From Methanolobus tindarius DSM 2278 (GTDB lineage: Archaea > Halobacteriota > Methanosarcinia > Methanosarcinales > Methanosarcinaceae), in assembly GCF_000504205.1 (NCBI RefSeq), contig NZ_AZAJ01000001.1:2702879-2766878 (forward strand): a stretch of 64,000 bases of DNA, read 5' to 3'. Below, in pieces: positions 3,457-53,930 of this stretch. The notes below the pieces were generated by a model. It did not search any database, was not told where the DNA came from, and worked only from the letters and a program-made list of their open reading frames with translations. Position 1 is the stretch's first letter. Every line of letters begins with the position of its first letter. The translations under genes and the position numbers were made by a program.

Positions 3457-4299
3457 TCATCTTTTTTGTACTTTACAAAACATAACATTATCACCGTTCC
3501 ACATATCAATATCCGGCAATACATCATCAAAAAACCCGATATCCTCAAAATCTTCCGGCCTCAACATCTGTTTCAGATCATCAGAAGCAAAGAAGTGGGT
3601 CCAGAAGCGATAGACATCGATATTTTCAGATTCATCAGCAATCACAATATGCTGGTAAAGTATAACCTTCTCATCCGGGTAGAGGAAAGAATCTGAAAGT
3701 ATAAGGTATGGCCTGTCCTTCCAGAATCCACTCATTTCCACCTCCCATGATCTTTCTGAGACTTTTGTCTCAAGATTTTTGTCACTCAGAACATCAAATA
3801 CAAAGATTCCACCTGGCTTTAAGGCCCTGTGGACGTTCCTGATAAGTTTTTCTCTTTCATGTGGTTTTAGTACGCCGAAGTCTGTGAAGACCATCATCAT
3901 AAGATCGTACTTGTTATCCGCATTCAGTTCGAGATAATTCAGGTTCACATACTCGATATCCAGACCTTTGTTTGCGGCCTGCTTTCTGGCATACTCAATG
4001 GAATTCTTCGAAAAATCGACTCCTGTAACATTGTGTCCTCTCTTTGCAATGAGTTCGCAATACAGACCGGGGCCGCATCCCAGGTCGAGTATGGTCATGT
4101 TTTCCTTATTCTGCAGATTGAGAATCCAGTCAACTGTACTCTCAATGGATGAACTCCGCCTGCTTGCCAGATCGACATCCGGATTGAGATGAATGTTCAA
4201 CAACTGTTCTGAAATGTGGGCATCCGTCCACATAACTGCATTTCCTTCAGCGTATAGCTGTGGTTTCTGTGTAAATTCAATAATATCTTTAAAATCCAT
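3457..4299 (-). CDS. class I SAM-dependent methyltransferase
   Basis: 280 aa. Motif I (ILDLGCGPG) near residue 70 and the acidic residue of motif II (VTGVDFS) about 20 residues later mark a Rossmann-fold methyltransferase. The later sequence GGIFVFDVLS is a typical post-motif region. The N-terminus is rich in aromatic and acidic residues and the C-terminal third carries the substrate cap. The substrate cannot be told from sequence; similar stand-alone enzymes methylate small molecules. It is transcribed alone, converging on the Bat-like operon. Confidence 0.85.
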   Translation of the reverse strand: MDFKDIIEFTQKPQLYAEGNAVMWTDAHISEQLLNIHLNPDVDLASRRSSSIESTVDWILNLQNKENMTILDLGCGPGLYCELIAKRGHNVTGVDFSKNSIEYARKQAANKGLDIEYVNLNYLELNADNKYDLMMMVFTDFGVLKPHEREKLIRNVHRALKPGGIFVFDVLSDKNLETKVSERSWEVEMSGFWKDRPYLILSDSFLYPDEKVILYQHIVIADESENIDVYRFWTHFFASDDLKQMLRPEDFEDIGFFDDVLPDIDMWNGDNVMFCKVQKR

Positions 4300-4545
4300 A
4301 ATGAGCCCTCCTTAATGGCAAAAACCCGGGACTCGAAATCTTCGATTAATAGCTAACAACTTTCAATAGAACAGGATGCTTAGTTGTTGTTCATCAGGAT
4401 AAATGGACATCACATCTTATTAAAATATTATGCCTGAGTTATAATTGATATTCATAATATCAGAAAAATGAGATGAAATTAAATTTGGATTTCATATTCA
4501 ATCGTGTAAATTAAATATATATAGAATAAAAACACCTGAGAGTTG

Positions 4546-4680
4546 TTTGTTCGGTACTTCATCGGGTGGTTAAAGGCGACCTGTTGCAAATGTGATTGGG
4601 GTCACACGCATCAAAAGCCTTACAATAGGTGAATGAATGAACAAAGATATTCCAAAGCTTAGTGAAAAAGCTACATTTTT
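4546..4680 (+). ncRNA. candidate structured RNA in the intergenic gap
   Basis: A TATA-like box (4511-4524) is followed about 26 nt later by a compact, comparatively GC-rich segment. It can fold as nested stems: TTTGTTC (4546-4552) with GAACAAA (4639-4645), AAGGC (4573-4577) with GCCTT (4617-4621), TGC (4585-4587) with GCA (4608-4610), and TGTGA (4591-4595) with TCACA (4602-4606) around a TTGGGG loop. A short hairpin AGCTT/AAGCT (4656-4672) followed by six T residues looks like a terminator. No open reading frame of useful length is present. The family is not recognised; it could also be an untranslated leader of the gene at 4782. Confidence 0.4.
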
Positions 4681-47534: not shown

Positions 47535-50500
47535 ATGGAGTTTAAAAGCCAGCAGAGGCTCTTAGCTATTGCTCTAGTCATCCTGACTAGTATGGCAATG
47601 GTTCAGACTGCTTTTGCTGCAGATGTAAATACAATCAGGCTCTATGGTGAAGACGGAATGGCAACTCCAAACTTCCCATACGAAACGCCTGAAGGACCAT
47701 TCGATCCACTAAGTCCTGAAGCACCTTACAAGGACTTCATGACATTCAACCCGGCACTTTTCGAGGATGGAATTGTGGTTAACCATGCAAATGCCTACGA
47801 AAAAGTGTTCGCAAGACAATATTTCGTTCCAAACTATGAGGAACCAACAGGTTTCGTCTGGCTTGACGAAGGTGACTATGTCAGAACTTCAAATGACATT
47901 GTAACCGAATATACCTATATGATGGTCAGTAAAGTTGACTACCAGCCAATAGAAGGAACCGCAATGGATCCACAGACCGATTCATACTGGACCAAGTTCT
48001 GGTTCCCAATTGCTGACAATGATGATGCTCAGATAGGTCTTGACGGTATGGATGCTGACGGAGACGGTACAGATGACATGGTACATCTTGAAGTAGCAGG
48101 AGACCTCAATCAGGATGGATATAAGGATGCAATGATCGCCACAGATTCAATGCAGCTTAAGGTCGGTGATGAACTACAGTTCCTTGATCACAAAGTCTTA
48201 GTTAAGGACGTAGCTATCAGCGGTCTCAATTCAAATCCACTTATAACCCTTACTCTTGATGTATACTACACTGGTAATGATGAACCTCAGCTCATTGAGA
48301 AGAACTATCAGGCAAGCATTGTTCCTGGTGACTATCTGGTCGCAAGCAGACACACAGTTGCTGACGCAACACCTAACAGTGACTACTCATGGTTCCTCAG
48401 AGCAGATGCAGTAAGCATGAACTACGCATATGTAACAGTAGGACGTGTACTCTATCAGGGAGAGAGCTTCTTTGTAGACGGTGCAGAATATGATGTTGCA
48501 GCTATTTTCGGCAGCGAATGCTATGGTGACTATGAATATGACAATACTGTAAAATACATCACTATCAGAAACCCTGTTCCTGAAGACTATGATGTAGACC
48601 TTGGTGACCTCTCTGTAATTAAGGAAAGCGTAAGTGCAAATGAAATGATTCCACTTCTGCCACCTTTCAACAGGGAACACATAATGATCGATGATATCGA
48701 TCTTCCAGCACCACAGTACACAGGCATCATTGATCACACATACACATGCTATTATGATGATGGCACAAATGCTGGTGACCGAAAGCTGACAGCTGATGCT
48801 CTTGAGATCTACTTCGTTGATGAAGATACTGAAGCAAGGTTTGATACAAACCTCTTTGAGATTCTTGATGAAGGCCAGACTGAAGAGTGGCAGTGGCTTG
48901 ACATTATGACAATGCCAGATCAGTACAAGGAATTTGTCTATCCGGCACTTCCTGATGTAAGCGGCAGCTATGCAGACTTCATCTTTACAAGCTCATTTGA
49001 GGCACCATACACAAGATTCTGCTATGAGAATTACGGATGTCTTTCAATGGAAGAACTTGACAAGAGAATGATGTTCGAATATGATCAGGAAACTGGAATC
49101 GAAGACATCTATGTCAATGAGATAGATGCAGACACCAACGGTGTCAGACTCTATGGCGGTTCTGCAGATGTAGCTGATATGATGGATGCAACATTCCCAT
49201 ACTCAGAAGACAATCCTGAAGGACCATTTGATCCACTCAACGATGAGGCTCCGGACATGGACTTTGTCACAATGAACCCTGCAGTATACACTCACTCTGC
49301 ATCAGTTGAAGGAGTTCTGGTAAAGAATGTAGATTCTACTGAAAAGGTATTCATCAGACAGTGGTTCGATCCAGATTATCATGAACCTGCTGGTGATGTA
49401 TGGCTTGATGAATCATATGATTACCAGAGAGTAACTGATGATGTAGTTGTTGAGTACACTTACATGCTTACAGACCTGGCTTACGAGCCAACTGAAGGTA
49501 CAGCTCTTGATCCACTCGATGCAGAATGTCCACTTGATCATGTTGCAAGCGGTTCACACTGGACTAAATTCTGGTTCCCAATTGCTGACAATGACGATTC
49601 ACAGATCGGTCTTGACGGCATGGATATCGATGGTGATGGAGACGATGAAATGGTTGATCTGAGAGCAGTCACCGATTTCAACGATGATGGACGTACTGAC
49701 ATTGCAATCGCTTCAGCAGATTCAATCCAGCTCCAGACAGGCGTACAGAATGCAGCAGGTGTCAACTCCGAAATACAGTTCCTTGACCACAAGGTTGTCG
49801 TAAAGGATGTTGCCCTTTCAGGTCTAAATTCCAACCCATTGATCACATTGACAATGGACATTTACTACACTGGTAATGATGAGCCACAGCTCATTGAGCA
49901 GAACTACCAGGCAAGCATTGTCCCAGGCGGAGCAATTTGTGCTGGCAGGCACGTTGCTATTGTCAACCATCCGGGAATCTTTGAATACCCATGGTTCCTG
50001 ACTGCAGATTCAGTAAGTGAGGACTATGTGTATGTGACAGTTGGACGTGTACTTTACACTGGTGAATCATTCTTTGTTGACGGTGCAGAATATGATGTTG
50101 CTATGATTTATGGTAGCACCTTTGAAGAGGGAGACGACGAATGTTGTACTAACTCCACACTTGTGAACACTTTCAAGTATATCACAATAAGGAACCCACT
50201 TCCAGAAGAGTATGAGGTTGACCTTGGTGACCTTTCAATTATTAAGGAACCTGTCCAGCCAATGGAAACTCTCCCACTGTTGCCACCATTCAATGGTGAC
50301 TTCAAGATGATCGATGACATTGATCTTGAACCATTCAACGTGAATGATTACACATGCTACTATGATGACGATACCAATATAGGATCCCGTGTATCTCCAG
50401 TCCAGCCAGCACTTGACATCTATTACACAAGTGCACCAGAGACTGAAGAGAGATTCCACAGCAACCTCTTTGAGATACTCTGTGAATGCAGTGTCGATTA

Positions 50501-50987
50501 CACAGTACCAGCAGAGAGCGCCGTCAGTCTTGTAAATGGCTGCGATGAATCATGGAAGTGGCTGCACATCCGCACAATGCCAGATGAATACAAGGAATTC
50601 GTCTATCCGGATGTATGGAACTACAATGGAATTGGAGACTATCTGGTAACCAGTTCATTCACTGCTCCAAACTCTGATCTCTGTGAGGAAGAATTCGATG
50701 AAGAATACCGCAGTGCAGATGTCCAGAGGCTCATGTTCTACCACGACCCATCAAACGGTGTTGGTCTTTACATGAACCAGGCAGAAGGTGCAGTATTCTC
50801 TGGTGAAGGCACAAAGGGTGACTTCAATGACGATGGAGTCATTGATCTAAAGGACCTCTCAGCTTTCGCATTGGCATATAATTCTGCATCCGGCGATGCA
50901 AATTATGATGCAACTGCAGATTTCAATGATGATGGAATGGTTGACCTGAAGGATCTTTCAGCCTTTGCACTTGTATACAACAAGTAA
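47535..50987 (+). CDS. S-layer-like surface protein, tandem duplication plus dockerin
   Basis: 1150 aa. A signal peptide (about 1-29, ending AFAA) is followed by two homologous halves (about 30-525 and 526-1080). Each contains TRLYGGS/TIRLYGED-type starts, WTKFWFPIADNDD, SGLNSNPLITLT, DIYYTGNDEPQLIE, RVLY(Q/T)GESFFVDGAEYD and KYITIRNP, the layout of Methanosarcina-type duplicated S-layer proteins. Residues about 1095-1150 form a type I dockerin: two loops, DFNDDGVIDLKDLSAFALAY and DFNDDGMVDLKDLSAFALVY, with Ca2+ ligands at positions 1, 3, 5, 9 and 12. There is no C-terminal membrane helix, so attachment must be through another protein; the next gene has cohesin modules. Confidence 0.85.
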   Translation: MEFKSQQRLLAIALVILTSMAMVQTAFAADVNTIRLYGEDGMATPNFPYETPEGPFDPLSPEAPYKDFMTFNPALFEDGIVVNHANAYEKVFARQYFVPNYEEPTGFVWLDEGDYVRTSNDIVTEYTYMMVSKVDYQPIEGTAMDPQTDSYWTKFWFPIADNDDAQIGLDGMDADGDGTDDMVHLEVAGDLNQDGYKDAMIATDSMQLKVGDELQFLDHKVLVKDVAISGLNSNPLITLTLDVYYTGNDEPQLIEKNYQASIVPGDYLVASRHTVADATPNSDYSWFLRADAVSMNYAYVTVGRVLYQGESFFVDGAEYDVAAIFGSECYGDYEYDNTVKYITIRNPVPEDYDVDLGDLSVIKESVSANEMIPLLPPFNREHIMIDDIDLPAPQYTGIIDHTYTCYYDDGTNAGDRKLTADALEIYFVDEDTEARFDTNLFEILDEGQTEEWQWLDIMTMPDQYKEFVYPALPDVSGSYADFIFTSSFEAPYTRFCYENYGCLSMEELDKRMMFEYDQETGIEDIYVNEIDADTNGVRLYGGSADVADMMDATFPYSEDNPEGPFDPLNDEAPDMDFVTMNPAVYTHSASVEGVLVKNVDSTEKVFIRQWFDPDYHEPAGDVWLDESYDYQRVTDDVVVEYTYMLTDLAYEPTEGTALDPLDAECPLDHVASGSHWTKFWFPIADNDDSQIGLDGMDIDGDGDDEMVDLRAVTDFNDDGRTDIAIASADSIQLQTGVQNAAGVNSEIQFLDHKVVVKDVALSGLNSNPLITLTMDIYYTGNDEPQLIEQNYQASIVPGGAICAGRHVAIVNHPGIFEYPWFLTADSVSEDYVYVTVGRVLYTGESFFVDGAEYDVAMIYGSTFEEGDDECCTNSTLVNTFKYITIRNPLPEEYEVDLGDLSIIKEPVQPMETLPLLPPFNGDFKMIDDIDLEPFNVNDYTCYYDDDTNIGSRVSPVQPALDIYYTSAPETEERFHSNLFEILCECSVDYTVPAESAVSLVNGCDESWKWLHIRTMPDEYKEFVYPDVWNYNGIGDYLVTSSFTAPNSDLCEEEFDEEYRSADVQRLMFYHDPSNGVGLYMNQAEGAVFSGEGTKGDFNDDGVIDLKDLSAFALAYNSASGDANYDATADFNDDGMVDLKDLSAFALVYNK

Positions 50988-51013
50988 ATATGAGGCACTT
51001 AGAAGGTGAAAAC

Positions 51014-52840
51014 ATGAATGTCAATAAAATGAAGGGATTTGCGGAAAGTGCCGCATTCCTTTTAATCTTTAGTGCATGCATCCTCATAGGAATAGGGTCT
51101 GCAGCTGCAACAGCTACTGTTACAGTTGATGACTCTGCTGCACAGGCTCTGTCACCCGGAGATACATTTGATGTTGTTGTCACATTAGATTCTGATGGGT
51201 CTATAGTATCAACATTGGGTGTTGAACTAATGTATGATTCGACAGTCCTAGATGTTGTTAGCATTACTCAGAATGGCCTATTTGGTGCCACTGCAAATGT
51301 GGATTACATACCAGATCCAGCTAATGGTGATGATGATGCTGGCACTATCTACTATGCACTCTCCGGAACAACTGCAGAAGCAAAGAATGGTGACTTCATT
51401 ACAGTGGAGTTTACAGTTCTTCCAGCAGTAGCTGACGGAGCATATCCATTGGAACTTTCAATGGTAGATCTACTATATGGTGCAACTGAAGTTCCATACA
51501 GTGCGGTTGATGGTACTGCTACAGTTGGAGATGAAGTTGTAGAAGATGAGTATCCTGAAGTATACGTATCTCCATCAACTACCAATGTAGATGCTGGTGA
51601 CACATTTGAAGTCAAAATCAAGCTCGATTCCATGGGTGAAGATGTTTCCACAATGGAAATATCACTCGCTTATGATTCAGATGCATTGACAGTACTTGGA
51701 ATTACCCAGAATGGTCTTTTCGGTGCTGTAGAAAATGTTGACTACATAGTTGTCCCAGGAAGCGGTGATGATGGAAGCGGTTTAATCATGTACGGCTTGG
51801 CAGGTACAATTTCAGAACCTAAGGTAGGAGACTTCATTACAATTGAGTTTGAAGCTGCATCGACTGCAGATGGAAGCTATTCACTTGATTTAATGGATGT
51901 TGAATTACTGGATGGTTCAAATGAAGTGCCTGATGTAATAGTCACAGGCGGATCTGTAGATGTTACAACTGTACCTGCAATTCCACCAATAGCTGACATC
52001 ACATCACACACATCCGGTGAAACACTTTCACAGATAGAGATTATCTCAGTTGAGGATGACTCTGGTGACGATGATGTTGTAAGTGCTACATTTGAGATCT
52101 TTGCAGATCTTGATGGTGACTGCAACGCTGATGATGTCGGTGAAGACTGGAGTGTGCTTGGAGTAGATACTAATGGAACAGATGGATGGAGTGTTGTATT
52201 CGATTCAACTACTGTTCCTGATGGAAACTACCTCATAAAGGCTACAATAGACGATGGTCAGGACACATCATTTGAGATCATATGTGTCACTGTCTACAAC
52301 CCGGCAGGAATTCTCTTGAAGCCAGGATGGAATTTCATTTCAGTACCTGAAGCACTTGAGAACCCAGCTGTTGCTGACGTACTAACTGACTTTGACAGCA
52401 CTGTGATTGATGCAGTATTCTACGATGACCTTTCAAGTGGAGTAAACACAATGGTAATTCCAACTGAGTTTGAACCACTTAAGGGATACTGGATCCACAA
52501 TGCTATGGATGAAGATGTCATAATTCTTGAGACATATATCCAGAAGTCAACAACAGTTCCAGCAACACCGGCAACACTTCAGCTCTATCCAGGATGGAAT
52601 GCTATTGGACACACCGCTCTTGAAGCACAGTCTGCAGATATTGCTCTCATGGCAATTGGCGATGACTGTCTCAAGGTAATGGGTCCATGGGTACCTTCTG
52701 CAAACAACTATGCATACATAGGTTTGAACATTGAGGACGGTTCATCATTGACCGGAAACTTTGTGACGATCTATGATTTCCAGATGGATGCATACGAAGG
52801 ATTCTATGTCCTGGTACAGGAGGAGTGTCTGCTCGGTTAA
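51014..52840 (+). CDS. double-cohesin scaffold-like surface protein
   Basis: 608 aa from the ATG preceded by AAGGTGA. After the signal peptide (about 1-28) two cohesin-like modules follow (about 35-170 and 182-325). Each has the cohesin opening (SPGDTFDVVVTLDSDG; DAGDTFEVKIKLDSMG), the strand YDSTVLDVVSITQNGLFGA or its copy, and GDFITVEFTV. Then comes an Ig-like module (about 330-430) and two units of the LKPGWNFISVP / LYPGWNAIGHT type. No membrane helix is present. It should bind the dockerin of the preceding protein. It is the second gene of the surface locus, 26 bases downstream. Confidence 0.8.
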   Translation: MNVNKMKGFAESAAFLLIFSACILIGIGSAAATATVTVDDSAAQALSPGDTFDVVVTLDSDGSIVSTLGVELMYDSTVLDVVSITQNGLFGATANVDYIPDPANGDDDAGTIYYALSGTTAEAKNGDFITVEFTVLPAVADGAYPLELSMVDLLYGATEVPYSAVDGTATVGDEVVEDEYPEVYVSPSTTNVDAGDTFEVKIKLDSMGEDVSTMEISLAYDSDALTVLGITQNGLFGAVENVDYIVVPGSGDDGSGLIMYGLAGTISEPKVGDFITIEFEAASTADGSYSLDLMDVELLDGSNEVPDVIVTGGSVDVTTVPAIPPIADITSHTSGETLSQIEIISVEDDSGDDDVVSATFEIFADLDGDCNADDVGEDWSVLGVDTNGTDGWSVVFDSTTVPDGNYLIKATIDDGQDTSFEIICVTVYNPAGILLKPGWNFISVPEALENPAVADVLTDFDSTVIDAVFYDDLSSGVNTMVIPTEFEPLKGYWIHNAMDEDVIILETYIQKSTTVPATPATLQLYPGWNAIGHTALEAQSADIALMAIGDDCLKVMGPWVPSANNYAYIGLNIEDGSSLTGNFVTIYDFQMDAYEGFYVLVQEECLLG

Positions 52841-52867
52841 CGAGACAAACAAAGGAGACAATTCAAT

Positions 52868-52890
52868 GTGAGATACAATTTGTATCTCAC
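52868..52890 (+). terminator. perfect hairpin between cohesin and anchor genes
   Basis: GTGAGATACA / TGTATCTCAC, 10 bp, 3-nt loop, followed by TTTTTATTTC. It would end most transcripts after the cohesin gene while some read on into the anchor gene. Confidence 0.75.
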
Positions 52891-52912
52891 TTTTTATTTC
52901 TTAGGTGGTAAC

Positions 52913-53566
52913 ATGAATAAAATTCGGATCTTTGCTTTAACAACTAAAATCATTCTAATTTGCATATTATTAGCAGGTGTGGCCTCGGCCAATCCGCCTA
53001 TTGTCCTTGAGGGAACTGTTACTATTGATGGTAATCCTGCTCCTGCAGGAACAGTTATCAAGGCAATGTGTGGTGAAGAAGTGGTAGGTACTACCACAGT
53101 TGATAATGCAGGCTATTACAGTGATACAAGGGATAATAAGTTGGGAATTTCCTCTGTATTAGAAGAATGTAGTAGTGTGACATTGTATGTGAACAATATA
53201 AAAACAGAAGATGTGGATATTTCCAGTATGAATGCTGGTGACATAGTCACTGTCAATCTTCAGGCAACAACAAGTACAAGCAGCAGTTCTTCAGAATCCA
53301 CAAAGACTACCTCTGGTGGTGGTGGAGGTTTTTCATCAGCTTCTGTAGAGGAAGAAACTCCTGTTGAGGAGGTCGCTGAAGAAATTCCTGAGGAAGAAGC
53401 TATGAGTAGTGTTGAGGATACCCTTGCCGAAGAAGAAGTTGCTGAAGAGGAAGAATCTGTTCCGGTGGAAGAAACAGAAGCACAAAGCGCTGATTTCCCT
53501 ACAGTTGTTGGTATAGGTTCAATGCTTGTAGTTGCAGGGATATTGATTCGCAAAAAAAATGAATAA
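52913..53566 (+). CDS. membrane-anchored surface protein
   Basis: 217 aa from the ATG that follows TTAGGTGG. Signal peptide (about 1-26), one beta-sandwich domain resembling carboxypeptidase-regulatory modules (VLEGTVTIDGNPAPAGTVIK, residues about 30-115), a Ser/Thr/Gly linker, a long Glu/Val-rich acidic stretch (about 140-190) and a C-terminal helix (VVGIGSMLVVAGILI) with a basic end RKKNE. The topology is that of a cell-surface stalk that spans the cell-wall layer. Its position suggests it anchors the two preceding proteins. Confidence 0.65.
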   Translation: MNKIRIFALTTKIILICILLAGVASANPPIVLEGTVTIDGNPAPAGTVIKAMCGEEVVGTTTVDNAGYYSDTRDNKLGISSVLEECSSVTLYVNNIKTEDVDISSMNAGDIVTVNLQATTSTSSSSSESTKTTSGGGGGFSSASVEEETPVEEVAEEIPEEEAMSSVEDTLAEEEVAEEEESVPVEETEAQSADFPTVVGIGSMLVVAGILIRKKNE

Positions 53567-53690: not shown

Positions 53691-53930
53691 GTGGATGTGG
53701 TTATTATAAGAAGGAGCAGAACGGCCATAAGTGTTGAGATCTTACGGGCTGCGCTAGAGGGGGCAAAAAAAACACATATAGTATACCGTGCAAATCTGAA
53801 TTTCGAAGTTGTGAACAGGTATCTTTCCCTTTTACAGGAGAATGGTCTCATAGAGCAGAAAGGCAACATGTATGTCACAACGGATAAAGGTAAGGAATTT
53901 CAGGAAATTGCTAAGGAACTGGGCTTGTAA
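53691..53930 (+). CDS. winged-helix regulator (HTH_45-like)
   Basis: 79 aa. The order RRSRTAISVEILRAALEGAK, KTHIVYRANLNFEVVNRYLS, LLQENGLIEQ, YVTTDKGKEF matches the archaeal HTH_45 family of stand-alone winged-helix proteins. GTG start without a clear ribosome binding site, with a TATA-like box about 20-25 bases upstream, so the message may be leaderless. Its targets are unknown; the suf operon begins 194 bases downstream. Confidence 0.75.
   Translation: MDVVIIRRSRTAISVEILRAALEGAKKTHIVYRANLNFEVVNRYLSLLQENGLIEQKGNMYVTTDKGKEFQEIAKELGL

Follow-up and report, generated by a model that had tools for sequence, protein, structure and literature searches.

Cohesins and dockerins outside cellulosomes are already known from archaea, as described in PMC9012536 and PMC5244752, and the role of these modules in non-cellulolytic archaea has been a long-standing question since they were first sighted there. 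PMC9012536 also describes archaeal cohesin-dockerin pairs as verified to bind and reports proteins of the anaerobic methanotrophic lineage ANME-2c that combine S-layer and dockerin domains. Here, we analyzed positions 47535-53566 of a 64-kb window (the whole stretch of DNA considered) in the complete, 3.15-Mb genome of Methanolobus tindarius DSM 2278, where three adjacent open reading frames (ORFs) encode a dockerin-bearing protein (ORF1), a protein with two cohesins (ORF2) and a small protein with a C-terminal membrane segment (ORF3). In several lineages, the segment from the dockerin to the cohesins was replaced as one cassette, while the ORF1 body, the ORF2 tail and ORF3 stayed. We regard it as likely that the locus is a surface-display operon, in which the dockerin/cohesin coupling forms an exchangeable cassette and the cargo and the anchor are constant. 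No paper on the operon, on how widely it occurs or on the exchange of the cassette was found in the literature searched, most of it openly accessible. The features are as follows:

47535..50987, forward strand: ORF1, a putative secreted surface protein of 1150 amino acids (aa) with signal peptide, two units and C-terminal dockerin, kept in Methanolobus and in distant Methanosarcinales
50814..50984, forward strand: dockerin module (residues 1094-1150), two near-identical calcium-loop/helix repeats, recognized by a sub-threshold PF00404 match, phmmer and repeat symmetry
51014..52840, forward strand: ORF2, a predicted secreted cohesin protein; the frame is open from 50990, with 51014 as the likely start, behind a Shine-Dalgarno site
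51116..51535, forward strand: cohesin 1, residues ~43-182 of the 616-aa ORF2 frame (PF00963 at 45-179)
51554..51964, forward strand: cohesin 2, residues ~189-325 of ORF2 (second PF00963 stretch)
52301..52837, forward strand: GWN tail, the domain at the C-terminus of ORF2, which contains two "PGWN" repeats and is shared by proteins with other N-terminal modules beside ORF3-like genes
52913..53566, forward strand: ORF3, with signal peptide, small conserved domain, Gly/acidic linker and C-terminal membrane segment; the frame is open from 52868
50814..52000, forward strand: coupling cassette open to exchange, comprising the dockerin, the signal peptide of ORF2 and its two cohesins; delimited by block replacement in the relative L058

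The likely starts of ORF2 and ORF3 (51014 and 52913) were set by Shine-Dalgarno sites and orthologue alignment. ORF2 is thus arranged as signal peptide, two cohesins, linker and GWN tail. A previous interpretation made without database searches (the sequence-only reading) had described three adjacent genes, the first two lacking a membrane segment and the third, small one ending in a membrane anchor. The genes were found where it had placed them, neither ORF1 nor ORF2 has a membrane segment beyond the signal peptide, and ORF3 carries a hydrophobic segment at residues 209-227.

The cassette exchange is most clearly seen in the comparison with L058, which shares 83% identity with the window in the ORF1 body, 87% in the GWN tail and 73% in ORF3, against 35-36% in the cohesins and 49% in the dockerin. 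At the DNA level, the identity to L058 is ~0.8 (0.73-0.95) upstream, 0.47-0.65 in the bins covering 50835-52034, which are close to the span from the dockerin to the second cohesin, and back to ~0.88 downstream of 52034 (0.80-0.90 in most bins). The same mosaic was observed for L060 and L062 against their own clade. In the trees of the body and of the GWN tail, the window groups with L057, L058 and L059 (support 100/100), and in the cohesin tree, L058 groups with L060 and L062 (100/99.9). In approximately unbiased tests, the alternative grouping is rejected in both directions (p 7.6e-6 for the body, 7e-4 for the cohesins and 2.4e-4 for the tail). Moreover, with the body distance removed, dockerin and cohesin distances are correlated (r 0.87, p 0.0002), compared with values of 0.18 for the dockerin against the tail and -0.03 against ORF3.

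The identity of ORF2 as a cohesin protein is, judging by its profile matches, beyond doubt. PF00963 scores 78.3 bits (cut-off 24.1, E 8.5e-22) over two stretches, of which the best spans residues 45-179 and profile positions 4-139 of 139, while cohesin 2 (about 189-325) reaches 41.5 bits in the genome search. The profile matches 13 of 13 ORF2 orthologues, and a search with the ORF2 alignment leads to solved scaffoldin cohesins. The cohesin-like modules previously placed at 35-170 and 182-325 therefore correspond to PF00963 matches, at 45-179 and about 191-325. For the dockerin, PF00404 gives 15.7 bits in the Pfam scan (cut-off 22.9) and 22.4 bits in the genome search; it matches six of the 14 ORF1 orthologues at E<=0.05 (best E 3.4e-6), and several distant ORF1 relatives pass the cut-off in the Pfam scan, where the module is recognized as a dockerin in most of the distant relatives covered. 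That ORF1 ends in a dockerin nevertheless holds, since its two-loop module at residues 1094-1150 leads by phmmer to solved cellulosomal dockerins (2y3n_B, E 9.7e-5). Both calcium-loop motifs are intact (DFNDDGVIDLKD and DFNDDGMVDLKD), a helix-like stretch follows each, and the module is C-terminal in all 14 ORF1 orthologues.

The symmetry of the dockerin was evaluated in 17 non-redundant dockerins, by comparing the agreement between the two repeats with that of shuffled pairings. Loop positions 10, 11, 13, 14, 15 and 18 vary between proteins and match between repeats (p<=0.0004), with an observed against shuffled agreement of 0.94/0.31 at position 10, 0.76/0.15 at position 11 and 1.00/0.30 at position 14, and most other loop positions have no excess agreement over the shuffled pairings. 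Positions 10 and 11 are published determinants of dockerin specificity, and the repeat symmetry is the basis of the dual-binding mode (PMC8063739). Symmetry combined with variation between lineages is what a working dockerin with drifting specificity should look like.

Co-occurrence was surveyed in 27 Methanolobus genomes, one of which, being fragmented, is undecided for ORF2. Full-length ORF1, retaining both units and the dockerin, is present in 14 of them; ORF1 and ORF2 are both found in 14 genomes and both missing from 12 (Fisher 1e-7). In all 14, the order ORF1-ORF2-ORF3 lies behind the same sua5 gene, with one locus split over a contig end. The same gene order extends, down to ~24% identity, across Methanosarcinales (Methanosarcinaceae, METP1 and Methanoperedens), so the survey of related genomes that had been suggested found it conserved in the Methanolobus genomes with ORF1 and at distant loci. 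It also appears in metagenome-assembled genomes with other labels, namely a "Thermoplasmata" bin, whose ORF1 has an inserted VWA domain, and a probably mis-assigned bacterial bin. Complete members have, as a rule, two body units per ORF1, and the number of ORF2 cohesins among relatives is one to three. Close homologues of ORF1 and ORF2 (43% identity) are also encoded on L143, a contig that bears the label of a candidate-division bacterium and is probably mis-binned archaeal DNA. Co-occurrence, the conserved order of the genes, the symmetry of the dockerin and its exchange together with the cohesins agree in pointing to ORF2 as the partner of the dockerin, as the sequence-only reading had guessed, and on these grounds it is very likely that the predicted pair is real and functional.

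In the mechanism that we propose, ORF1 would be a secreted, calcium-dependent, dockerin-tagged surface protein and ORF2 a small scaffold, whose two cohesins (one to three in relatives) would bind the ORF1 dockerin and thereby gather copies of ORF1. The GWN tail of ORF2 would attach to ORF3, whose C-terminal segment would keep it in the membrane. Dockerin and cohesins would act as an interchangeable coupling cassette, both replaced at once in several lineages; in one genus (g8), the pair would have been swapped for a different one with cargo and anchor unchanged. The contact between tail and ORF3 is suggested by the fact that the two travel together behind different front modules, as GWN tails and ORF3-like genes adjoin also where cohesins are missing. 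One example in the same genome is a second GWN-tail protein, which has a CbiX domain in place of cohesins and is again followed by an ORF3-like gene (L171:4685-6634 and 3878-4588), a secreted CbiX being odd. For ORF3 itself, none of the PGF-, PEF- or VPXXXP-CTERM models of NCBIfam, searched for as archaeosortase signals, matched at E<=1, which leaves a plain C-terminal hydrophobic segment; a FlgH match (E 6.5e-4) was discarded as under the cut-off and located in a low-complexity region. Two further features belong to the locus:

53691..53930, forward strand: fourth gene, a 79-aa winged-helix protein (PF14947), directly 3' of ORF3 and conserved
52868..52890, no strand assigned: 11-bp inverted repeat without mismatches and, after it, a T-rich run, in the gap between ORF2 and ORF3, read from the sequence

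The conserved fourth gene had been overlooked in the sequence-only reading. It matches PF14947 with 83 bits, follows ORF3 in the Methanolobus loci, is also present in several of the operons with DUF11-type repeats discussed below, and is a candidate regulator that probably controls the set. The inverted repeat with its T-run could be a terminator or a processing site.

Several points weigh against the surface-display reading. The ORF1 dockerin of this genome scores under the Pfam cut-off, the predicted contact between GWN tail and ORF3 is based on gene adjacency, and the inverted repeat between ORF2 and ORF3 may mean a broken transcript. The groups compared in the trees were defined once the identities were known, and the permutation tests correct only partly for shared ancestry. 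Seriously, too, since dockerin and cohesins are contiguous in the DNA, a single recombination explains each exchange and can move both without functional coupling, and linkage alone would yield the correlation of their distances. Functional coupling is favoured because the exchange breakpoints lie near module boundaries and no mixed dockerin/cohesin pair was seen. The low dockerin score, along with the title of an early study that calls the archaeal modules vestigial (Bayer 1999, as cited in PMC9012536), would also fit degenerate, non-binding leftovers conserved through the surface proteins alone. We consider this highly improbable, given that the calcium loops are intact, that the recognition positions stay symmetric while diverging between lineages, that the cohesin matches are strong and the modules preserved across an order, and that binding by archaeal pairs has been shown (cited in PMC9012536). 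Competition for the dockerin is a further concern, as the genome contains eight other cohesin matches, several of them on small proteins with a C-terminal membrane segment, and some related species encode a membrane-anchored cohesin protein just upstream of ORF1. The dockerin might then dock mainly on such proteins, and ORF2 serve something else. This appears unlikely, as dockerin and ORF2 cohesins switch type together in three lineages, ORF2 is absent wherever ORF1 is missing, and the clade of the window has no upstream cohesin gene at the ORF1 locus. The description of the locus as self-contained is plausible, because the gene adjoining ORF1 encodes its best-supported partner and ORF3 is a candidate for the anchor; other cohesins of the genome are, however, possible partners as well, and the ORF2-ORF3 link is a prediction.

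The nature of the ORF1 cargo bears on a different alternative, put forward by the sequence-only reading, which called ORF1 S-layer-like and proposed that the surface layer itself is built through cohesin-dockerin binding. ORF1 is indeed large, secreted, acidic and tandemly duplicated, as are the S-layer proteins of Methanosarcinales, whose PF07752 domains usually occur in tandem. Its body consists of two beta-rich units of ~500 aa (residues 30-530 and 531-1085), and the two halves are 52.5% identical over 558 columns. The Pfam scan gave no family above cut-off for the body and no PF07752 match up to E 1, and profile-profile comparison of either half with ten PF07752 domains that this genome encodes gave probabilities of 0.25-0.28%. 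A one-unit model built from 45 diverse rows was of good quality (mean predicted local distance difference test score, pLDDT, 80; predicted template modelling score, pTM, 0.84), and in the fold search with it, none of the PDB matches was below E 0.001. The Methanosarcina acetivorans S-layer structure 3u2g was listed at a non-significant E of 0.12 (TM about 0.2), and recurred weakly (E 0.07) with an earlier whole-ORF1 model from 14 close sequences, itself too poor for use (pLDDT 43). The genome has 28 PF07752 matches in genes other than ORF1 and, by profile searches, only two dockerins, neither on a PF07752 protein; in addition, the operon is wholly missing from 12 Methanolobus genomes. Despite the S-layer-domain proteins with dockerins in ANME-2c genomes (reported in PMC9012536), assembly of the lattice through this interaction is therefore unlikely. 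As an S-layer protein, ORF1 was rejected on the Pfam and profile-profile results and the lack of a significant fold match, with the weak 3u2g hint remaining. Given the separate S-layer genes, the body is not shown to form a lattice; a surface protein is the assignment that we retain, and a lattice role is not supported. The claim that the locus does not serve cellulases was, on the other hand, borne out, and a cellulosome was rejected, since no carbohydrate-active enzyme or carbohydrate-binding Pfam domain was found above cut-off in ORF1 or ORF2.

Other cohesin and dockerin proteins were noted in the same genome and its relatives. About 6 kb upstream of the window, a 1152-aa protein carries both a cohesin and a dockerin, with recognition residues unlike those of ORF1 (L070:3918-7376), and long dockerin proteins of this type are present in many genomes of the genus. 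In the genome G002, a CAP-domain protein (L168:7253-8227) has a dockerin whose specificity type equals that of the ORF1 dockerin in G002, and is possibly an extra cargo for the same cohesins. In the second Methanolobus clade (L060-L069), the region upstream of ORF1 encodes an additional pair, namely a single-cohesin protein of ~500 aa whose C-terminus is hydrophobic, and a ~136-aa protein with multiple membrane segments. The former was considered as a co-swapping partner and dismissed, as its cohesin does not track the clear type pattern.

The interchange of coupling pairs, which reaches beyond the coordinates of the locus, is the most interesting part of these results. In g8, another genus of the family, the cargo proteins of L159 and L172, unrelated to the ORF1 body, are 79% identical over residues 1-669, and their ORF2 proteins are 82% identical over the last 291 residues. 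L159 has a dockerin and cohesins, and L172 has a C-terminal EF-hand two-helix module, adjoining DUF11-type repeats, for which Pfam gave no dockerin match. This arrangement, in which an upstream protein ending in the module is followed by two to four DUF11-type repeats, was found again in the loci with a readable upstream gene end; most of them also have a GWN tail and an ORF3-like gene:

L172:8893-11013, L173:2738-5053 and loci L180-L192, L198 and L201: EF-hand two-helix module beside DUF11-type repeats, together a candidate for a second docking pair

The two helices of the module agree at positions 2, 3, 7, 9 and 10 (p<=0.0002, 13 loci), a symmetry of the same kind as that of dockerins. Between the DUF11-type repeats and cohesins, the profile probability is 44% (controls, 0.3-0.4%), a faint relation, and the candidate second pair could either be distantly related to the classical cohesin-dockerin pair or be independent of it. 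We tentatively propose, as quite possible though less secure than the operon itself, that Methanosarcinales have an anchoring platform with a slot for interchangeable pairs, either dockerin with cohesins or, as a pair so far undescribed, EF-hand tag with tandem DUF11-type beta modules as its sockets, and that lineages swap the whole cassette. Downstream of one operon with the DUF11-type pair, we also observed a VPXXXP-CTERM-like protein beside an archaeosortase B (231 bits; L173:10572-12466).

The locus offers a single predicted pair, a predicted anchor and natural swaps from which the partners of each module can be forecast, and thus opens the question of what these modules do in non-cellulolytic archaea to direct testing. 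Should the second pair prove real, a recurrent C-terminal tag and some of the DUF11-type repeats would gain a function, and new orthogonal protein couplers would become available. The same operon is found in the methane-oxidizing Methanoperedens, whose cell-surface make-up draws wide interest.

Compared with known systems, the locus follows the logic of the bacterial (type I) cellulosome, with repeated cohesins on a scaffold, a symmetric dockerin on the cargo and an anchoring protein; the Methanolobus cargo, however, belongs to no recognized enzyme family, no carbohydrate-binding module is present and the anchor would be a separate membrane protein. The S-layer proteins of Methanosarcinales (PF07752/DUF1608; MA0829, 3u2g) resemble ORF1 in being large, duplicated, beta-rich, secreted and from the same organisms, but ORF1 has no significant sequence or fold relation to them and they are encoded by separate genes in its own genome. 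The ANME-2c proteins come from the same order and, according to PMC9012536, likewise bear a dockerin on a large surface protein, for which a role in attaching proteins to the outer layer has been proposed; they are reported with S-layer domains, whereas the ORF1 body has no detectable one, and no operon or partner was found named for them. Finally, the pairs of Archaeoglobus fulgidus (Peer et al. 2009, cited in PMC9012536) share with this locus both module families and a secreted, non-cellulolytic archaeal setting. What the Methanolobus locus adds is a conserved operon with a small scaffold of several cohesins and a candidate anchor, as well as evidence that the cassette has been exchanged.

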